Positions 24,044-35,628 of a stretch of 47,543 nt of DNA are shown piece by piece. Source of the stretch: Bacteriovorax stolpii (GTDB taxonomy: Bacteria; Bdellovibrionota; Bacteriovoracia; Bacteriovoracales; Bacteriovoracaceae); the NCBI GenBank assembly GCA_945860895.1, contig CAMASK010000015.1:1-47543 (forward strand), written 5' to 3'. Every line of letters starts with the position of its first letter. Positions within the stretch are counted from its first letter, which is position 1. The notes under the pieces were generated by a model. The model saw nothing but the letters and a program-made list of their open reading frames with translations. It was not told where the DNA came from and made no database searches. The translations under genes and the position numbers were made by a program.

Positions 24044-24057
24044 GGAAGTTGATTAAG

Positions 24058-26874
24058 TTGAGTAGTGAAATAGCGTCCCTTTACCAGGACATCCGTTCTA
24101 ATCTTGATATATCTAGAAAAGCATTAATTACGACAAGTATTTCGGGAGATGAAGAATCTCCTGAAATACGGTCTTTAGATGATGCTCAAATCGTATTAAA
24201 TACTCTCGAATCCATTGCACTCGACACCAGTGTTCTGTTGGATCAGATTCCTTCACTCGAGTCTTTATTTGAGAAGAATTTTGGAAAAGTCCGTGAGCTT
24301 TATGACAGGGCAGCCATTGTTGAAACAACATTTGTTGAAGATTTCATTTTTCCTTTAACCAGCAACTACTCAGTACTAGTTGATAATGAATTTAGTGCTG
24401 AAGTCACAGGATCTTATAAAGAGACATATAAAGCCTGGGTTGAAGAAAAGACAGCGAAGCATCTAGCGACTCAGGATTTATTAAAGTTAAATTTTGATAT
24501 TAAAATTAGTGACCGTGATATCAGCTGCCAATGTGTCCAATGTCTTGGTGATTATCGCGCACAAATCAGGGAAGCTGTGTTTGCCTTGCAAACGAGTCTC
24601 ATTGATAACGCCGAAGAAAAACTTCACGACTGGATCCTAGCTAAGAAAATTGCAGATATTTCGGGTGCAGTATTTAACCTGAAAAAAGATTTAGAAAAAA
24701 ACTTCCATAACATGCGTAACAAACTCAAGCGTTCATCTGTGAACAAGCTTGAGAATGAAGTGAAGACTCACTTCCGGTTAAAATTCAGTTCAAAATCTGA
24801 GCTGGGAAAAGTTTATAAAGAAAAACTGAACGTTTTCTTCAATACTCTTTTAGTAGAACAGGGTCTTAAACCTGAACTCATTTCTCCCGAAGAATACGAA
24901 AAGTTTTTTTACCAATTAGAAACTAATATCTGGAAGGGTGAACTCTTCCTAAAAACAGAATTTGAACGTTTCACCATGGCCGTGATGGCCTTAAAGCGCA
25001 AAGATGTTTCTTCCACAATTCTAAGAGACTATCTTGGGCAATTTTGGTTGCACGCTGAATCTCGCCGCATTAATCGTAAAGTTATTTATCATATGGGTCC
25101 TACTAACTCCGGTAAGACTTATCACGCTATAGAAGCTCTCTGTAAGGCCAAAAATGGTTGTTACTTAGCTCCACTTAGACTTCTAGCATCTGAGCTGTAC
25201 GATACCATGAACCAAAAAGGTGTTCGTACCACACTCCTGACTGGTGAAGAAGTCATTGAGATTCCTGACTCAACACATTTTTCTTCAACTATCGAAATGG
25301 CCAAGCTTCAGCAAAGATTTCAATGCTGCGTGATCGATGAAATCCAGATGCTCACTGATCCACAACGTGGTTGGGCCTGGACGCGTGCCTTAGTTAATAT
25401 TCAAGCCGATGAAATTCACATTTGCGGTGATCACTCTGTTCTTGAACTAGTAAAGCAGGTTCTGGCCCTTTGTGGTGATACTCTTGAAATTCGTGAATAC
25501 ACGCGTATGACTGAACTCAATGTGATGGAGCACCAGATTCCTCTTTCTCAACTTGAAAAAAATGATGCCTTGATTGTTTTCTCACGAAGAAATGCTCTTA
25601 AATACAAAGCCGATCTGGAAGAGCTCGATTTTAAAGTTTCTATTGTTTATGGACGACTATCTCCGGAAGTGCGTCGTGAACAGGCGAGAAAATTTGATGA
25701 AGGCGAAACTGATATCATGGTTTCAACTGATGCCATTGCCATGGGGATGAACTTACCCGTGAAACGAATTGTTTTCTCCGCTCTCTCGAAGTTTATTGAT
25801 AATAATGAAAATCCACTGACCTATAGTGAAATTAAACAAATCTCAGGCCGTGCAGGAAGATTCAAACGCTTTCCCGTAGGTCATGTAACAACTCTGAACC
25901 GGGTTGAAGATGGACTTCGCACTTTAAGAAATGCTCTAGCTCACACTCTATCACAAAGTGATAAGGCGATGGTGGGGCCAGATTTAGATATCTTCAGTAG
26001 TGTTAACCATGCCCTTGATGCCAACACTCTTCCTAGTCTTTCCCTTTCAGAATTCTTACGTCTCTTTAATACCATGACATTTAGAAAACCATTCTATTGT
26101 GTGGATATGAAAGAAATGATTGAACTGGCAGAAATGGTAGAAGCTGCAGATGAGGATCGGACTTTATCTAATGCTGAAATCTTTGGCTTCGCCTGTGCTC
26201 CAGTCAATCTCGGATTGATCGAGCATGTACAATATTACTTATGGATTTTGAATCACTACGTTGGAAATCAATCTATCATCAATGAACCGATCGATGAGCG
26301 CTCAGACAATATTGATTACCTTGAAACTTCCATTAAATGCGTAGAGCTCTATCAGTGGCTTTCAAGACACTTTGATAAAAAGAATTTTAACTTCGATGAG
26401 AAGAGTCTACTTGAGAATAAATCCAAAGCTATTGAAAGATTGAATGAACTTCTTTCTGATAAAATTGGTAAAACTTGCTCGAGTTGCGGCTGTAAAATGC
26501 CGGCGAACGCCCGTTTTAATATTTGTGATGAATGTTTTTCAAAACGTAAATTCCAAAGACGTGGCCCTCCTCGTGATGATAGATCAGCTCAAGATAATAG
26601 AGACAACCGGGATAATCGAGAAAACCGCGATTCTCGAAGTGGTGGACGTGGCAGTCATAAAGGTGGCGGCCGTGGCAGAAATGATAAGCGTGGCAATAAA
26701 GAACCTCGCAAAGAAAATGGTGCACGTCCTGAGCGATCACATCAAGCTGAACGATCTTCGGGCCCTTCTTCGTCAACTTCAGACACTGGGATTAGAAGAC
26801 CTAGTCCTCAGCGAACTGGCGCAAAAAAACCAGGTAATAAAAATGCAGCAGCTGCTTTTAGAAAACACCGTTAA
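24058..26874 (+). CDS. SUV3-like ATP-dependent RNA helicase with zinc-finger and basic RGG-like tail
   Basis: About 938 residues. The helicase core begins near residue 345 with G-P-T-N-S-G-K-T (Walker A), A-P-L-R-L-L-A, T-G-E-E, D-E-I-Q (about 427), then S-T-D-A-I-A-M-G-M-N and Q-I-S-G-R-A-G-R. These are diagnostic of the SUV3/mtRNA-degradosome family. N-terminal to it are 340 unassigned residues with a C-Q-C-V-Q-C cluster near 158. The C-terminus has a four-cysteine zinc finger (C-S-S-C...C-D-E-C, about 805-835) and a disordered R/D/N/G-rich tail. The start is a TTG; 24058 is 11 bases from AAGGA, while TTG 24049 is only 2. Confidence 0.9.
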   Translation: MSSEIASLYQDIRSNLDISRKALITTSISGDEESPEIRSLDDAQIVLNTLESIALDTSVLLDQIPSLESLFEKNFGKVRELYDRAAIVETTFVEDFIFPLTSNYSVLVDNEFSAEVTGSYKETYKAWVEEKTAKHLATQDLLKLNFDIKISDRDISCQCVQCLGDYRAQIREAVFALQTSLIDNAEEKLHDWILAKKIADISGAVFNLKKDLEKNFHNMRNKLKRSSVNKLENEVKTHFRLKFSSKSELGKVYKEKLNVFFNTLLVEQGLKPELISPEEYEKFFYQLETNIWKGELFLKTEFERFTMAVMALKRKDVSSTILRDYLGQFWLHAESRRINRKVIYHMGPTNSGKTYHAIEALCKAKNGCYLAPLRLLASELYDTMNQKGVRTTLLTGEEVIEIPDSTHFSSTIEMAKLQQRFQCCVIDEIQMLTDPQRGWAWTRALVNIQADEIHICGDHSVLELVKQVLALCGDTLEIREYTRMTELNVMEHQIPLSQLEKNDALIVFSRRNALKYKADLEELDFKVSIVYGRLSPEVRREQARKFDEGETDIMVSTDAIAMGMNLPVKRIVFSALSKFIDNNENPLTYSEIKQISGRAGRFKRFPVGHVTTLNRVEDGLRTLRNALAHTLSQSDKAMVGPDLDIFSSVNHALDANTLPSLSLSEFLRLFNTMTFRKPFYCVDMKEMIELAEMVEAADEDRTLSNAEIFGFACAPVNLGLIEHVQYYLWILNHYVGNQSIINEPIDERSDNIDYLETSIKCVELYQWLSRHFDKKNFNFDEKSLLENKSKAIERLNELLSDKIGKTCSSCGCKMPANARFNICDECFSKRKFQRRGPPRDDRSAQDNRDNRDNRENRDSRSGGRGSHKGGGRGRNDKRGNKEPRKENGARPERSHQAERSSGPSSSTSDTGIRRPSPQRTGAKKPGNKNAAAAFRKHR

Positions 26875-26876
26875 GT

Positions 26877-27689
26877 ATGAATTCGTATTCAGAATTTGCC
26901 CGTAAAATTCTTTCTGGAGAAACTCTGGAAGATAAACTACTTTCCCATTCCTTTGAGTGGGATAAGTGGCAACCTCACGATTTACCGAACTCCCCAGGAC
27001 GTACGGGCCGGCTTGCCTTTTCTGAAGAAAAATTAAAATTTCCTAAGATGGCGAGACTTAATGAGAACGATAAAAAAGCCCTGGCCCTTCATAGTTTTGC
27101 AAATCATGAACTTCTGGCGATAGAAATGATGGCAGCCGCCATTCTAATTTATCCTCATGTCACAGAAGATGATGTGAGATTTAAAAAAGGAATTCTTACG
27201 GCCTTAAAAGATGAGCAGAAGCATTTAAGTCTATACATCAAAAGAATTAATGAGCTTGGATACGAGTTCGGGGATTTTCCCTTGAATGACTTTTTTTGGC
27301 GTCAAATGGCTAAGCTCAAATCTCCTGCACAATACACAGCTGTAATGGCGCTAACCTTTGAAGCAGCCAATTTGGATTTTGCTCAGTATTACTCGAAGAT
27401 CTTTCGCGATTTTGGCGACGAAGTTACCGCCAACATAATGGATGAAGTTCTTGCCGATGAGATTACCCATGTGGCTTTTGGTGCACATTGGATGAAGAAG
27501 TGGAGAGCTGATAAAGATATCTGGGATTATTATCGAAGTTCTTTGCCCTTTCCAATGACCCCTGCCAGAAGTAAGGGCTTTGGATATGATTCGGTCATTC
27601 ATGGTAAGGCCATGAATGATGAGAGCTTCATTGATCAATTAAGCGCTTATGATGATGATTTTCTGATAACCAAAAGAAAAAAAACATGA
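26877..27689 (+). CDS. DUF455 ferritin-like diiron protein
   Basis: 270 residues, soluble four-helix bundle. Carboxylate-bridged diiron ligands are readable: E78 and E83 in H-E-L-L-A-I-E, E113-x-x-H116 in D-E-Q-K-H, E162 in F-E-A-A, and E195-x-x-H198 in D-E-I-T-H. This is the DUF455 family, whose reaction is unknown; distant relatives include oxygen-using hydroxylases. It starts 2 bases after the helicase stop without its own clear ribosome site and overlaps the next gene by 4 bases (ATGA), so it is tightly coupled to the ATP-grasp-like protein. Confidence 0.88.
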   Translation: MNSYSEFARKILSGETLEDKLLSHSFEWDKWQPHDLPNSPGRTGRLAFSEEKLKFPKMARLNENDKKALALHSFANHELLAIEMMAAAILIYPHVTEDDVRFKKGILTALKDEQKHLSLYIKRINELGYEFGDFPLNDFFWRQMAKLKSPAQYTAVMALTFEAANLDFAQYYSKIFRDFGDEVTANIMDEVLADEITHVAFGAHWMKKWRADKDIWDYYRSSLPFPMTPARSKGFGYDSVIHGKAMNDESFIDQLSAYDDDFLITKRKKT

Positions 27690-28759
27690 AGGCCATTAAG
27701 GTCAATGCAGATTATGAAGTGGAACTATTTCATGGGAAAACTGCTCCGCCCATAATCAACCACACAATTGAATTTCTGGCTTTGTATTTAGAAGACGCTC
27801 CACTTTGGTCAACCAAAAATTACTCCAAAGAATACTTAAATCATGTGGCCAGCATTACTCGCAAAGAACCCAGAATTGTTCATTCTGGCCCTTTTGAAAA
27901 CTGGTGGGGTCCCTTAAAAGACCTAAGAGTTGAGAGAGAATGGAATTCAAAGATTACGAGTACACAAATCATTATTAATCAAGGCTGGTGTAAAAATACT
28001 TTTATCATTCACAAAGCAGAAGATATGAGTGCACTAAAAGCCGATGTGGCCTATTTGCTTAAAGATCCATATGGAATGTCAGGACAAAGATTTCAAGTTC
28101 TTCCCCAAGAATTAGATCTTCAGCAAAAAAAAGAATTGATCCTCAAATCCTTATCGTATGGTTCGCTAATCATAGAGCCTTTGTTTCATCGAATTTATGA
28201 TTTTTCACAATACATTTTCCCTGATGGAAAAAGGATTGCTTATCAGAATCTCGTTGATAGTAAATTTCAATACAAAGGTACAGTCTTTAAGGATTACAAA
28301 GATCCAACACTTGAAAATTTGCCCTTCTTTCATCGAGTTTCAAAAAAAAATTGGGATAACTATAAAGAGCAGATAAATCAAATTATAAAATCCTATAAAA
28401 AGCTTCAAAATAATGCAGGATTCTCCATCGATTCTTTTGTTTATGAAGAGGGTAATGAATTCAAAATTCGTGCAATGAGTGAAATTAACTATCGTCGCAC
28501 TATGGGACGAATGTCTTGGGAACTTTCTTCTAAGTACAGTGGAGGGAAAGTCTGGAGCGGTCTTTATTTATTTAAATACACTGGTGAAGAAATTCTCTGG
28601 GAGTTATTGAAATATTTAGAAAACGTAAAGGTTCTGTCTCCTGGTGATTCCAGATTTGAAGTGCTCTATTTGAGTGCCCGAGATGAAGATGAAGGAATTG
28701 AGTTGTTACAAAAATTAAGAAGCCTACTGCCTGATGCCCAATTTTCGATAAAGCTCTAG
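27686..28759 (+). CDS. ATP-grasp-like ligase of unknown substrate
   Basis: 357 residues. ATP-grasp pattern: K126 before a glycine-rich loop (L-K-D-P-Y-G-M-S-G-Q, 125-134), E164 in I-I-E-P, D172, a D-S-F-V-Y strand (249-253) and the metal/phosphate end E266-I-N268-Y-R270-x3-G274. The N-terminal about 90 residues are rich in aromatic residues and would form the substrate domain. Such enzymes join a carboxylate to an amine or thiol. No named family recognised. Coupled by ATGA overlap to the DUF455 gene; 36 bases overlap the convergent aldolase gene. Confidence 0.65.
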   Translation: MKAIKVNADYEVELFHGKTAPPIINHTIEFLALYLEDAPLWSTKNYSKEYLNHVASITRKEPRIVHSGPFENWWGPLKDLRVEREWNSKITSTQIIINQGWCKNTFIIHKAEDMSALKADVAYLLKDPYGMSGQRFQVLPQELDLQQKKELILKSLSYGSLIIEPLFHRIYDFSQYIFPDGKRIAYQNLVDSKFQYKGTVFKDYKDPTLENLPFFHRVSKKNWDNYKEQINQIIKSYKKLQNNAGFSIDSFVYEEGNEFKIRAMSEINYRRTMGRMSWELSSKYSGGKVWSGLYLFKYTGEEILWELLKYLENVKVLSPGDSRFEVLYLSARDEDEGIELLQKLRSLLPDAQFSIKL

Positions 28760-29341
28760 AATATTTTTACCTGCCTCTTCAGCCGTTGTTCCGTAAGAGA
28801 TAATTCCATCTTCATGGCCTTTCATGACAAACACACCACTTGATTTATTAGCGAGGAGTTCATAGGCAGCATTTGCCATTTCCTGGGTTCCGTAATGAAT
28901 ATTTTCCTCAATGAAATCGCAATTCTGGTTTTGAAGCATTTCCCATAATTTCTGATGATGAACGTGAAAGACGTATTGAATTGTGGGATTTGCTTCATAG
29001 ATCCCAAAATGAGTTAGTGATTCGCTGGATGGAGGAATTAAACCTTCGGCAGTCACTGAACCACGCTTAAGGTCACAATCCATAACTTTGGTATAGTGGT
29101 GGGCTTGGAGGTGAGGTAAGTGACCAGTTTGACTTCCAGTGATGATAAAGGCTTTCTTTTGGAGACGAGAAGAAAGATTGCCATATCCGATTTTTTCGTT
29201 CGGGTATTCTCCAACCAAGCCTTGCTTGTAGAAGATGGCCCGCCACTTTTCCAAAGCGATAACTTGAACCAATTCAGGAGCCGGGGCCCTCTTGAGAGTG
29301 AGCTTGAACTTTATAATACCTTCATCTTTAGCATTATTCAC
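28724..29341 (-). CDS. class II aldolase/adducin-family protein
   Basis: About 205 residues from GTG 29341, which has AAGGA 6 bases before it; a TTG 36 bases earlier (29377) is possible but lacks a ribosome site. Family motifs: Y-G-N-L-S-S-R (phosphate loop), T-G-S-Q-T-G-H, the metal-binding V-F-H-V-H-H and a later G-H-E-D-G-I-I with a third histidine. P-P-S-S-E-S near the middle is in the usual position. It resembles fuculose/ribulose aldolases, epimerases and methylthioribulose-phosphate dehydratase; substrate unassigned. Convergent with the ATP-grasp gene, divergent from the acidic protein. Confidence 0.85.
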   Translation of the reverse strand: MNNAKDEGIIKFKLTLKRAPAPELVQVIALEKWRAIFYKQGLVGEYPNEKIGYGNLSSRLQKKAFIITGSQTGHLPHLQAHHYTKVMDCDLKRGSVTAEGLIPPSSESLTHFGIYEANPTIQYVFHVHHQKLWEMLQNQNCDFIEENIHYGTQEMANAAYELLANKSSGVFVMKGHEDGIISYGTTAEEAGKNILELYRKLGIRQ

Positions 29342-29371
29342 TGTAAGTCCTTGATCTCCTATGGAGTTTTC

Positions 29372-29399
29372 TTGCAAACTTCATAACGTGTCTTATAAT
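29372..29399 (+). promoter_or_regulatory. sigma-70 promoter of the acidic membrane protein gene
   Basis: TTGCAA (29372-29377), a 16-base spacer and consensus TATAAT (29394-29399). The predicted transcription start is near 29406, giving a leader of roughly 45-60 bases before the start of the acidic protein. Confidence 0.55.
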
Positions 29400-32618: not shown

Positions 32619-33240
32619 TTTTATTTTAATTTTAACAATGAGCTCATTATTTGCTCAAACTCGTTTCAGCTCAAAAAGCTGTCTTGATTCTAATTACAAT
32701 ATGAAGATGATTCAAAAAGGACCTCTTTTTGGTCTTTTGAAGCAAGAATTTGTAATTATTAAAAAGAATTGCATCATTCACATTACACATAAGAAATATT
32801 TACCTAAAGAATGGATTATCGATGTTTGTCGTGAACCCATACACATCAAAGTAACTTCTGCTACGGGTGTTGATGTGGCAAAAAAAGAAGCTGAGTGTAT
32901 AAACAAAGATAAGTCTCGTGATACCAGCGATTTTTGCTCACAATATTTTACTATGATGGATGTTATTCAGGATGATGGTTTAATTTTCGCTGAAGGTGAT
33001 CGCGATAATTTGAATTCTAATCATGGTAAAACTTATTGCAGCTATTTATTATTAAAAAAATATCTAAATGATTCAGTTGTTTTCAGCCGTTACACTGAAG
33101 TTCCAGATATCTTTATCGAAAAAGCCAAGGAAGTTGAGTCTCCTGCTACCCCTGCAATTCCTGAAGAATCACAGGGGAAAGGTAATGATAAAACAACTAA
33201 GACTGAAGGTTATCAAGTACAGACATCTGCTACTTTTTAA
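32599..33240 (+). CDS. small exported protein of unknown function
   Basis: 213 residues with a signal peptide (M-V-F-I-K-F...S-S-L-F-A-Q, cut near 20). The mature part has seven cysteines (including K-S-C-L, K-N-C-I, D-V-C-R, A-E-C-I, D-F-C-S and T-Y-C-S), so it is probably disulfide-bonded in the periplasm or outside. A Pro/Glu/Lys-rich tail follows. No family recognised. GGAGG lies 9 bases before the ATG, inside the upstream gene, which it overlaps by 20 bases; the two are likely cotranscribed. The 3' end overlaps the convergent PLP-enzyme gene by 11 bases. Confidence 0.75.
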   Translation: MVFIKFSFILILTMSSLFAQTRFSSKSCLDSNYNMKMIQKGPLFGLLKQEFVIIKKNCIIHITHKKYLPKEWIIDVCREPIHIKVTSATGVDVAKKEAECINKDKSRDTSDFCSQYFTMMDVIQDDGLIFAEGDRDNLNSNHGKTYCSYLLLKKYLNDSVVFSRYTEVPDIFIEKAKEVESPATPAIPEESQGKGNDKTTKTEGYQVQTSATF

Positions 33241-34387
33241 CTTTGCTGAAAGCGTATTCTAAATCAGCAATTAAATCATCGGCATCTTCTATACCAACAG
33301 ATAATCTGATCAAGTTATCAAAGATGCCGAGCTCTTCTCTCACTGCTTTTGGAATTGAAGCATGAGTCATAATGGCAGGATGATCAACCAAGCTTTCAAC
33401 TCCTCCAAGGCTCTCGGCCAGAGCGAAAAGTTTCACATTCTCAAGAAAGTTACGGGACTCTTCAATTCCGCCTTTCAAGAAGAATGTAATCATTCCTCCA
33501 AAACCTTTCATTTGAGATTTCGCTAGTTCATGCTGGGGATGTGATTTTAGTCCAGGGTAGACTACTCTCTCTACTTTAGGATGAGTTTCAAGGAAGTAAG
33601 CAAGTTTCGTGGCATTTTTTTCATGAGCACGCATTCTAATAGCAAGAGTTTTAATTCCTCTAAGAACAAGCCAGCTATCAAAAGGTGATTGACATGGACC
33701 AATGGCATTTTGATAGAAGAAAAGTTTTTCACGAATTTCATCAGAATTAAACATCATCGCTCCGCCAACCACATCCGAATGACCGTTAATGAACTTAGTC
33801 ATTGAATGAAGAACAATATCTGCGCCCTGATCCAGAGGATTCTGGAAGAAAGGACTCATAAAAGTATTATCAACCACCACAAGTGATTTTACTTTTTTCG
33901 CCATAGTCGTTATCGCCTTGATGTCAGAAATCTTAAGCAGAGGATTAGTAGGAGTTTCAAGCCAGATAAGTGCTGGTTTAAAAGTCTCTAATTCTTTCTC
34001 AAGGTTCTTTAAATTTGTGGTATCCACAAATTTATATTCATGAATTTCAGGGAACACTTTTGAGAAAAGACGATATGTTCCGCCATAAACATCATCTCCG
34101 CATAAAATCTTGGATCCTTTGGGGAGCATGTGCATGATTAAAGAAGATGCGGACAGACCACTGGCAGTTACCAGACAGTGTTTGGCATTTTCTAAAGATG
34201 CCAGGCATTCTTCAAGACGTGTTCTGGTCGGGTTGTGAGAGCGAGTGTACTCATATCCTTTGTGTTCACCGGGGGAAGATTGAACATAAGTTGAAGTCTG
34301 GTAAATAGGAGGCATGATGGCCCCTGTAACCGGATCAGGCTCACCACCGACATGGATGACTTTAGTTTCAAATTTCATTTCTTTCAT
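33230..34387 (-). CDS. cystathionine gamma-synthase/gamma-lyase family PLP enzyme
   Basis: 385 residues, the Cys/Met metabolism PLP family. Seen: Y-E-Y-T-R-S-H-N-P-T-R near residue 44, the A-S-G-L-S-A cofactor loop, W-L-E-T-P-T-N-P, D-N-T-F-M-S-P, and the Schiff-base lysine in H-S-M-T-K-F-I-N-G-H-S-D. It could make cystathionine (MetB), split it to cysteine (gamma-lyase) or release sulfide from homocysteine; sequence alone does not decide. It begins 2 bases after the gshA stop with GGAG 6 bases ahead. Being next to gshA favours cysteine supply for glutathione. Confidence 0.92.
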   Translation of the reverse strand: MKEMKFETKVIHVGGEPDPVTGAIMPPIYQTSTYVQSSPGEHKGYEYTRSHNPTRTRLEECLASLENAKHCLVTASGLSASSLIMHMLPKGSKILCGDDVYGGTYRLFSKVFPEIHEYKFVDTTNLKNLEKELETFKPALIWLETPTNPLLKISDIKAITTMAKKVKSLVVVDNTFMSPFFQNPLDQGADIVLHSMTKFINGHSDVVGGAMMFNSDEIREKLFFYQNAIGPCQSPFDSWLVLRGIKTLAIRMRAHEKNATKLAYFLETHPKVERVVYPGLKSHPQHELAKSQMKGFGGMITFFLKGGIEESRNFLENVKLFALAESLGGVESLVDHPAIMTHASIPKAVREELGIFDNLIRLSVGIEDADDLIADLEYAFSKVKK

Positions 34388-34389
34388 TA

Positions 34390-35628
34390 TTACTCCATTA
34401 ACTCTTTCAATTCATGAGAAGCGGCAAGTGTTGAGAGCCGGGCAATGACTGAATAGACCGCTTCTTTTATTTTATGATCACAATCTTGTTTGACATCAGA
34501 TAAACAAAGTTTTTGGTAAATCATCCCTTGAGAATTTAAATTTGCCTGCGTTCCTTTGAGTGGGTTGGTTCGCATAAAACCACCTGTGCTTTTCCCATTC
34601 ACCAGATAAATGGTGACTTCTGCAGGGGCATCATCATATTTTACAATAGTTTCGACACCCTCCTGAATGAGCACGGAGGTAAATTTTAGATTATTTTTTC
34701 CAACATCCATTTTATTTCGAACTTTCCTGTTCATGTTCTTGATTTCTTCGCCTGAGGAAACAACTGATATCCCCATGCCATAAGTCCCTTGGGAAGCTTT
34801 CACAAAAACCGAAGATTCTGGAGGTAGAGTTGCCAAGAGTTTATCAACTTCTTTAGCCAGTGCATCCAGGCCTTCTTTAGTATTGTAATCAACACCATCG
34901 ACAGTCGAAAAATGGGCCTGTATCAAGTCAGGATTAATGCCAAAGTTGGCCGCAAAGGCATTCGCCACATCTTTATAAAGGTTAAAATGGTGGTTTTTTT
35001 GACGTTTATACCAACCAACAAATGGAGAAGGATGAACCTGAGTCTGAATTGTTTTCCAATCAACAGGTAAAGGATTTGATTGGTCATTATTTAATACGAT
35101 AATATCAAAATCAAATTTTATTTCTGGACTCATGCTTTGAAATTTTCCATCCATGACTTGAGCTTCATGAATCAAAATATGATGCCCAGATTGAGATTCA
35201 AGCTCAAGTTTAGATGAGCCATGATCTTTAAAAAGATTTTTATCTGGAGAGAAAAGGATTACTTCTGTATCGGCCATTTCAATAGTTGCTTTTAGTTTAT
35301 GAAGATGATCTAGATAGAATTTATTTTTTGTATGAGATTCTGGCAGAAGTCCAACTCTCTTTAGATTTGGCATAACTAAATCAAATGCTTCTTTAAAGCG
35401 ATCAGCACAGTGAAGAAGATCCTTACTACAAATATTGTTAAACCCAGCTGGATACATATTGTGATCAACCGGAGCAAATTTAAATTTGCTTTCTCTTACA
35501 TCAACACTTGAAGTTAGTGGTTGTATGACCTTACTTTGTTCCTTATCTATCCACTGATTGACCTCGTTCCAGTTGTGACAAATGAACTGTTCGAGTTCAA
35601 TTTTATTTGAAACTTTATAGGACGGCAT
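34390..35628 (-). CDS. gshA: glutamate-cysteine ligase, Acidithiobacillus-type (third class)
   Basis: 412 residues. Joins glutamate and cysteine as the first step of glutathione synthesis. It belongs to the less common GshA class first named from Acidithiobacillus ferrooxidans: F-A-P-V-D-H-N-M-Y-P-A-G-F-N-N near 52-66, F-V-K-A-S-Q-G-T-Y-G-M-G-I near 283-295 (ATP loop), and V-N-G-K-S-T-G-G-F-M-R near 342-352. Its ATG lies 14 bases inside the upstream ATPase gene, so translation is coupled. No gshB is in the window. A GST is encoded at 5104-5685. Confidence 0.88.
   Translation of the reverse strand: MPSYKVSNKIELEQFICHNWNEVNQWIDKEQSKVIQPLTSSVDVRESKFKFAPVDHNMYPAGFNNICSKDLLHCADRFKEAFDLVMPNLKRVGLLPESHTKNKFYLDHLHKLKATIEMADTEVILFSPDKNLFKDHGSSKLELESQSGHHILIHEAQVMDGKFQSMSPEIKFDFDIIVLNNDQSNPLPVDWKTIQTQVHPSPFVGWYKRQKNHHFNLYKDVANAFAANFGINPDLIQAHFSTVDGVDYNTKEGLDALAKEVDKLLATLPPESSVFVKASQGTYGMGISVVSSGEEIKNMNRKVRNKMDVGKNNLKFTSVLIQEGVETIVKYDDAPAEVTIYLVNGKSTGGFMRTNPLKGTQANLNSQGMIYQKLCLSDVKQDCDHKIKEAVYSVIARLSTLAASHELKELME

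Follow-up and report, generated by a model that had tools for sequence, protein, structure and literature searches.

Does the 4-nucleotide overlap between two genes of Bacteriovorax stolpii, encoding a DUF455 diiron protein (270 aa, positions 26877-27689, forward strand) and an ATP-grasp enzyme whose family has no name (357 aa, 27686-28759, forward strand), reflect a shared function, and if so, what chemistry might the two proteins perform together? The locus lies in a 47,543-nucleotide stretch of DNA, referred to here as the window, and the overlap (ATGA, 27686-27689), which joins the stop codon of the DUF455 gene to the start codon of the ATP-grasp gene, is plainly seen in the sequence. The preliminary description of this DNA had taken it to imply both equal production and joint function, and had suggested a small biosynthetic or protein/peptide-modifying route from the nature of the two proteins. 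Equal production does not follow from gene overlap alone; joint function is considered below in the light of comparative evidence. DUF455 is a Pfam family with no assigned function, and the literature searched yielded passing mentions of it and no functional study; nor did it yield any description of the DUF455/ATP-grasp pair.

Two predicted enzymes and their folds

The DUF455 protein scores 160.8 bits against Pfam model PF04305, well over the gathering cut-off of 34.3, and its predicted structure (pLDDT 94.0) is a four-helix bundle that carries all of the predicted diiron ligands on its four long helices. These ligands, E78 (27108-27110), E113 (27213-27215), H116 (27222-27224), E162 (27360-27362), E195 (27459-27461) and H198 (27468-27470), make up the E / E-x-x-H / E / E-x-x-H arrangement which, together with the bundle, marks a ferritin-like diiron protein, and E78, E113-x-x-H116, E162 and E195-x-x-H198 are invariant in an alignment with 18 relatives, so that the earlier statement that every E/E-x-x-H ligand is kept extends to the family. 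The closest solved folds are those of aldehyde-deformylating oxygenases, matched weakly (E 5e-3); iron-storage ferritins and Dps proteins, again matched weakly, are near as well. Likeness of the DUF455 half to aldehyde-deformylating oxygenase and AurF is found in both sequence and fold, and is weak in each; the scores lie under the family cut-offs and the partner proteins differ. A PDB match to Crov588 (51.5 bits, no passing stretch) was rejected as a repeat-sum artefact, this being a leucine-rich-repeat virus protein.

The second protein gave nothing over cut-off in Pfam, NCBIfam or PDB sequence searches, and Pfam and NCBIfam scans of each of 23 relatives returned sporadic weak matches only; its assignment comes from structure prediction and fold comparison. 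An AlphaFold2 model made with these 23 relatives (pLDDT 93.8, pTM 0.92) has the ATP-grasp fold that had been proposed from the letters of the gene: Foldseek returned 300 PDB matches at E <= 0.001, of which the best 50 are all ATP-grasp enzymes. The lowest E-value among the matches listed is that of PurK (6.5e-12), and the best TM-scores among the same matches belong to the peptide ligase 8ynd (0.69), 3wvq (0.67) and BesA (0.64). PurK, PurT and biotin carboxylases match the model as well, several with better E-values and lower TM-scores, so the acceptor of the enzyme need not be an amino acid.

The motif of the family can be written N7...E11; W74-G75; K89; K126; S132-G133; E164; D172; D249; E266-x-N268-x-R270; T-M-G274. 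Between the window protein and its 23 relatives N7, E11, W74, K89, G133, D249, E266, N268, R270 and G274 are invariant, and across 35 ATP-grasp proteins of Bdellovibrionota, Chlamydiota and Bacteroidota the columns kept include K126, S132-G133, E164, D172, D249, E266, N268 and R270, along with N7 and W74-G75, which are specific to this family. The enzyme has the residues expected of an ATP-grasp protein, with predicted nucleotide-binding lysines (K89, K126), a hinge glutamate (E164), metal ligands (D249, E266, N268) and R270, the exceptions being a change of E164 to A or K, and of K126 to R, in some family members. Retention of nucleotide and metal residues, asserted previously for the window protein, thus holds among its relatives for K89, D249, E266 and N268.

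By TM-score or weak sequence match, the closest characterised or named proteins are mostly amino-acid or peptide ligases: 8ynd, 3wvq (PGM1), BesA and LdmS. For the PGM1/8ynd-type peptide ligases, which have the best TM-scores among the matches listed (0.67-0.69), 8ynd also gives a weak sequence match to the family and shares with the window protein a G-x-x-G-x-x-x-x-D...E-x-N-x-R region, but identity is about 12%, and the invariant N...E and W-G motifs are peculiar to the window family. Among named sequence families, that of the L-aspartate-L-methionine ligase LdmS (NF047900) comes nearest to the Chlamydiota homologue of the enzyme, at E 1.4e-6 and 27 bits, far below the curated cut-off of 475, whilst the window protein itself gives no match to this model. 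The structures 7r8p and 7r8q (SAOUHSC_02373) are of LdmS, and 7r8q aligns with the window model at a TM-score of 0.57 in Foldseek. We know of no diiron partner for LdmS.

Inheritance of the pair

In all 30 home-family loci recovered by a search of 58 relatives, the DUF455 and ATP-grasp genes are neighbours with a shared orientation. In 28 of these the spacing is between -32 and +4 nt, with the -4 overlap recurring in many relatives; about 450 nt separate the genes in the other two, one of these intervals holding an opposite-strand gene of 137 aa. A GTDB scan based on the ATP-grasp alignment recovered 56 Bdellovibrionota loci, and in 54 of them DUF455 is the gene immediately upstream, with a contig edge and a Halobacteriovorax marinus genome as the two exceptions; the two genome draws overlap, and the 30-locus and 56-locus counts are therefore not independent. 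The adjacency noted in the window is thus conserved in relatives, and the arrangement persists while ATP-grasp identity between genera drops to 21-30%. In Halobacteriovorax marinus (G177) the DUF455 gene has moved to a contig other than that of the ATP-grasp gene and both are retained, and four home-family genera, at 95-99% completeness, lack both genes together. At two such empty sites (locus L231, 1280-4623, and locus L232, 188-3505) the helicase and aldolase genes that otherwise flank the pair abut one another. Predicted promoter and terminator sites along the operon were no more numerous than in shuffled sequences.

The upstream flanking gene encodes a SUV3-type DEXQ RNA helicase (24049-26874, forward strand; PF22527, 211 bits against a gathering score of 27), and since it ends only 2 nt before the pair it is probably part of the same transcript. 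Downstream, a class II aldolase-family gene (28724-29377, reverse strand; PF00596, 48.1 bits against 22.2) converges on the pair as previously reported; the 3' ends of this gene and of the ATP-grasp gene share about 36 nt (28724-28759), and comparable overlaps are seen throughout the genus. Most home-family loci have the helicase upstream and many have the aldolase converging. The preliminary description left open whether these two genes belong with the pair, a doubt that is settled by their presence and absence across family genomes: the helicase occurs in all 34 sampled, including four without the pair, and the aldolase was found in three of those four and was not found in seven genomes that have the pair. 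As the helicase is retained on loss of the pair and the aldolase varies independently of it, neither is an obligate partner and the pair itself is the unit; both genes are neighbours, and optional partners at most, and they were rejected as pathway members on this presence and absence. Elsewhere in the window (33230-35628) a TIGR02049-type glutamate-cysteine ligase (303.9 bits against 293.9) is encoded beside a putative Cys/Met-metabolism PLP enzyme.

Outside the home family the association takes two further forms. In six other Bdellovibrionota families, among 144 genomes of the phylum, the DUF455 and ATP-grasp matches share one open frame, and the 12 fused loci examined are single open reading frames of 594-802 aa with the DUF455 half first. 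The catalytic columns are kept in both halves, with a few substitutions in the most divergent proteins, and the C-terminal half belongs to the family of the window ATP-grasp protein, the split and fused forms aligning in hhalign at 99.9% (E 5.7e-31) over 287 columns that include the N...E and W-G motifs. The neighbourhoods of the fused genes vary and contain neither helicase nor aldolase, save for a SUV3-type gene alongside in one genome. Several fused genes of one family have nearby a putative MoxR-type ATPase gene and a conserved unnamed gene (KDDWDLAIRFRDIQRYGYL...).

The second form is co-occurrence at a distance. Whole-genome searches covered three phyla, Bdellovibrionota, Chlamydiota and Bacteroidota, each genome draw being a sample. 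Of the 92 Chlamydiota genomes covered, 29 carry the full pair, one carries DUF455 only, two carry the ATP-grasp gene only and 60 carry neither (Fisher p 1.9e-20, uncorrected for kinship), although the two genes lie far apart. The Chlamydiota ATP-grasp gene is found between ispF-like and murA-like genes, names that are read from sequence. Ten Chlamydiota loci have, immediately upstream of DUF455, a gene encoding an SH3-domain protein, which in turn is preceded by a conserved gene for an unnamed protein of about 240 aa with no Pfam match. In Bacteroidota, 3 of 248 sampled genomes, and many Prevotella-type genomes as well, carry the ATP-grasp gene but no DUF455.

A tree of 73 DUF455 sequences, in which long branches were flagged and the bootstrap is not fully settled, places all ligase-accompanying DUF455 proteins in one clade (support 97/89), with the fused forms at several basal branches that are long and of modest support. 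The stand-alone DUF455 proteins of Bdellovibrio-type genomes belong to the same Pfam family (PF04305) and have the same ferritin-like region as the window protein, but form a separate clade with different neighbours, and no ATP-grasp homologue was found in the genomes that carry them. At seven loci these stand-alone genes lie beside YebC-like and usually RluB-like genes, surroundings hinting at a link to RNA or translation. The DUF455 proteins of plasmids and chromids in rhizobia and others were set aside, being different, distant and without a ligase.

Because adjacency, fusion or co-inheritance recurs in two phyla, the pairing is not due to chance, and the two genes form a conserved, co-inherited and partly fused unit. 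The overlap in the window, the fusion in relatives and the nearly constant joint keeping or loss in two phyla further indicate that the DUF455 and ATP-grasp proteins very probably run one shared reaction sequence. Joint function, first proposed from the gene overlap, has thereby gained strong additional support, from fusion, unlinked co-occurrence and joint absence.

A proposed two-step reaction and its alternatives

The reading that we favour, with a probability of roughly 0.6, is that the genes encode one two-step system, in which amide ligation of an amino-acid-like substrate is combined with diiron oxidation of the product or of a precursor. ATP-dependent amide formation is suggested because the closest ATP-grasp proteins are mostly amino-acid or peptide ligases, and O2-dependent oxidation because the diiron half most resembles oxygenases. 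The ATP-grasp half would use Mg-ATP to activate an amino-acid-like substrate at its carboxylate, as an acyl phosphate, and would then couple this to an amine through an amide or peptide bond; for its part, the DUF455 half would use O2 at its diiron site to oxidise a compound of the same route, which it might hydroxylate, desaturate or cleave. Ligation followed by oxidation is slightly favoured, since anaerobic Bacteroidota keep the ligase alone and DUF455 proteins of this clade almost never occur without it, although oxidation may instead supply the substrate of the ligase. The biosynthetic or peptide-modifying route of the preliminary description would accordingly be sharpened, by the likeness of its ATP-grasp enzyme to amino-acid and peptide ligases, towards substrates of this class.

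Alternatively, the pair may modify a macromolecule: the ATP-grasp enzyme would attach an amino acid or another group to a protein or an RNA, and its diiron partner would oxidise what was attached, reminiscent of RimK-type tagging or of the tRNA hydroxylase MiaE. Such a role could account for the RNA helicase gene directly upstream in the home family and for the YebC-like and RluB-like genes that flank the other DUF455 clade, as well as for the Chlamydiota arrangements in which DUF455 follows an SH3-domain gene and the ligase gene adjoins a murA-like gene. However, the helicase persists without the pair and lies near fused genes in one genome only, the neighbours of the pair vary between phyla, and a Pfam scan that admitted hits up to E = 1 gave the proteins of the window no MiaE or RimK match, the diiron protein included in the case of MiaE. 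We consider modification of a macromolecule unlikely.

Less likely still is a role in iron or redox homeostasis, with DUF455 serving in iron storage or peroxide protection and the ATP-grasp enzyme making an unrelated or iron-related compound. Whilst ferritins and Dps are among the weak fold matches of DUF455, and a rhizobial DUF455 gene adjoins a peroxiredoxin gene, covalent fusion to a biosynthetic-type ligase in six families would be unexpected for a storage protein, and it is to oxygenases (aldehyde-deformylating oxygenase, AurF) that DUF455 comes closest in fold and in sequence. Finally, the conservation of the SUV3 and aldolase genes at the same family locus makes gene order alone weak evidence, and would fit unrelated housekeeping genes that overlap by chance in one family and are kept together by descent only, but this highly improbable explanation is already contradicted by fusion outside the home family, by unlinked co-occurrence in Chlamydiota, by the keeping of both genes once parted in Halobacteriovorax and by their shared absence where the flanking genes are intact.

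Relation to known systems and implications

The beta-ethynylserine (bes) route is of the type that combines a diiron oxidase with an ATP-grasp amino-acid ligase. Heme-oxygenase-like diiron oxidases (HDO) are found with ATP-grasp ligases acting on amino acids or peptides in at least 25 cluster types, including that of mangotoxin (PMC13185094). As in the mangotoxin (mbo) and bes systems, the window encodes an ATP-grasp protein together with a diiron enzyme, the amino-acid substrate of the pair being a predicted one, and BesA is itself among the fold matches given above. The diiron partner in mbo and bes is, however, an HDO, in contrast to the ferritin-like DUF455 protein of the window, and the window pair differs further in being fused in several families, in its core-like inheritance and in that no surrounding biosynthetic cluster was seen. 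Given the different diiron family, the fusions and the core-like inheritance, we do not regard the pair as a member of the HDO/ATP-grasp systems; on paper, it would resemble ligase plus diiron oxidase systems such as that of mangotoxin, with a DUF455 partner instead.

More tentatively than the two-step reading itself, we propose that the pair may constitute a conserved route, as yet undescribed, that is fused, overlapping or unlinked in different members of the Bdellovibrionota and Chlamydiota, and that yields either an amino-acid or peptide compound in modified form or a modification of this kind on a macromolecule, in a basic cellular rather than a secondary-metabolite role. One DUF455 clade is now tied to a specific enzyme class, and the natural single-chain fusions offer a single protein for purification and assay, with amino acids and short peptides as the substrates to try first. 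If the proposal is correct, predators and intracellular bacteria belonging to two distant phyla would share a previously unnoticed oxygen-dependent reaction, of which anaerobic Bacteroidota would retain the ligase half only.
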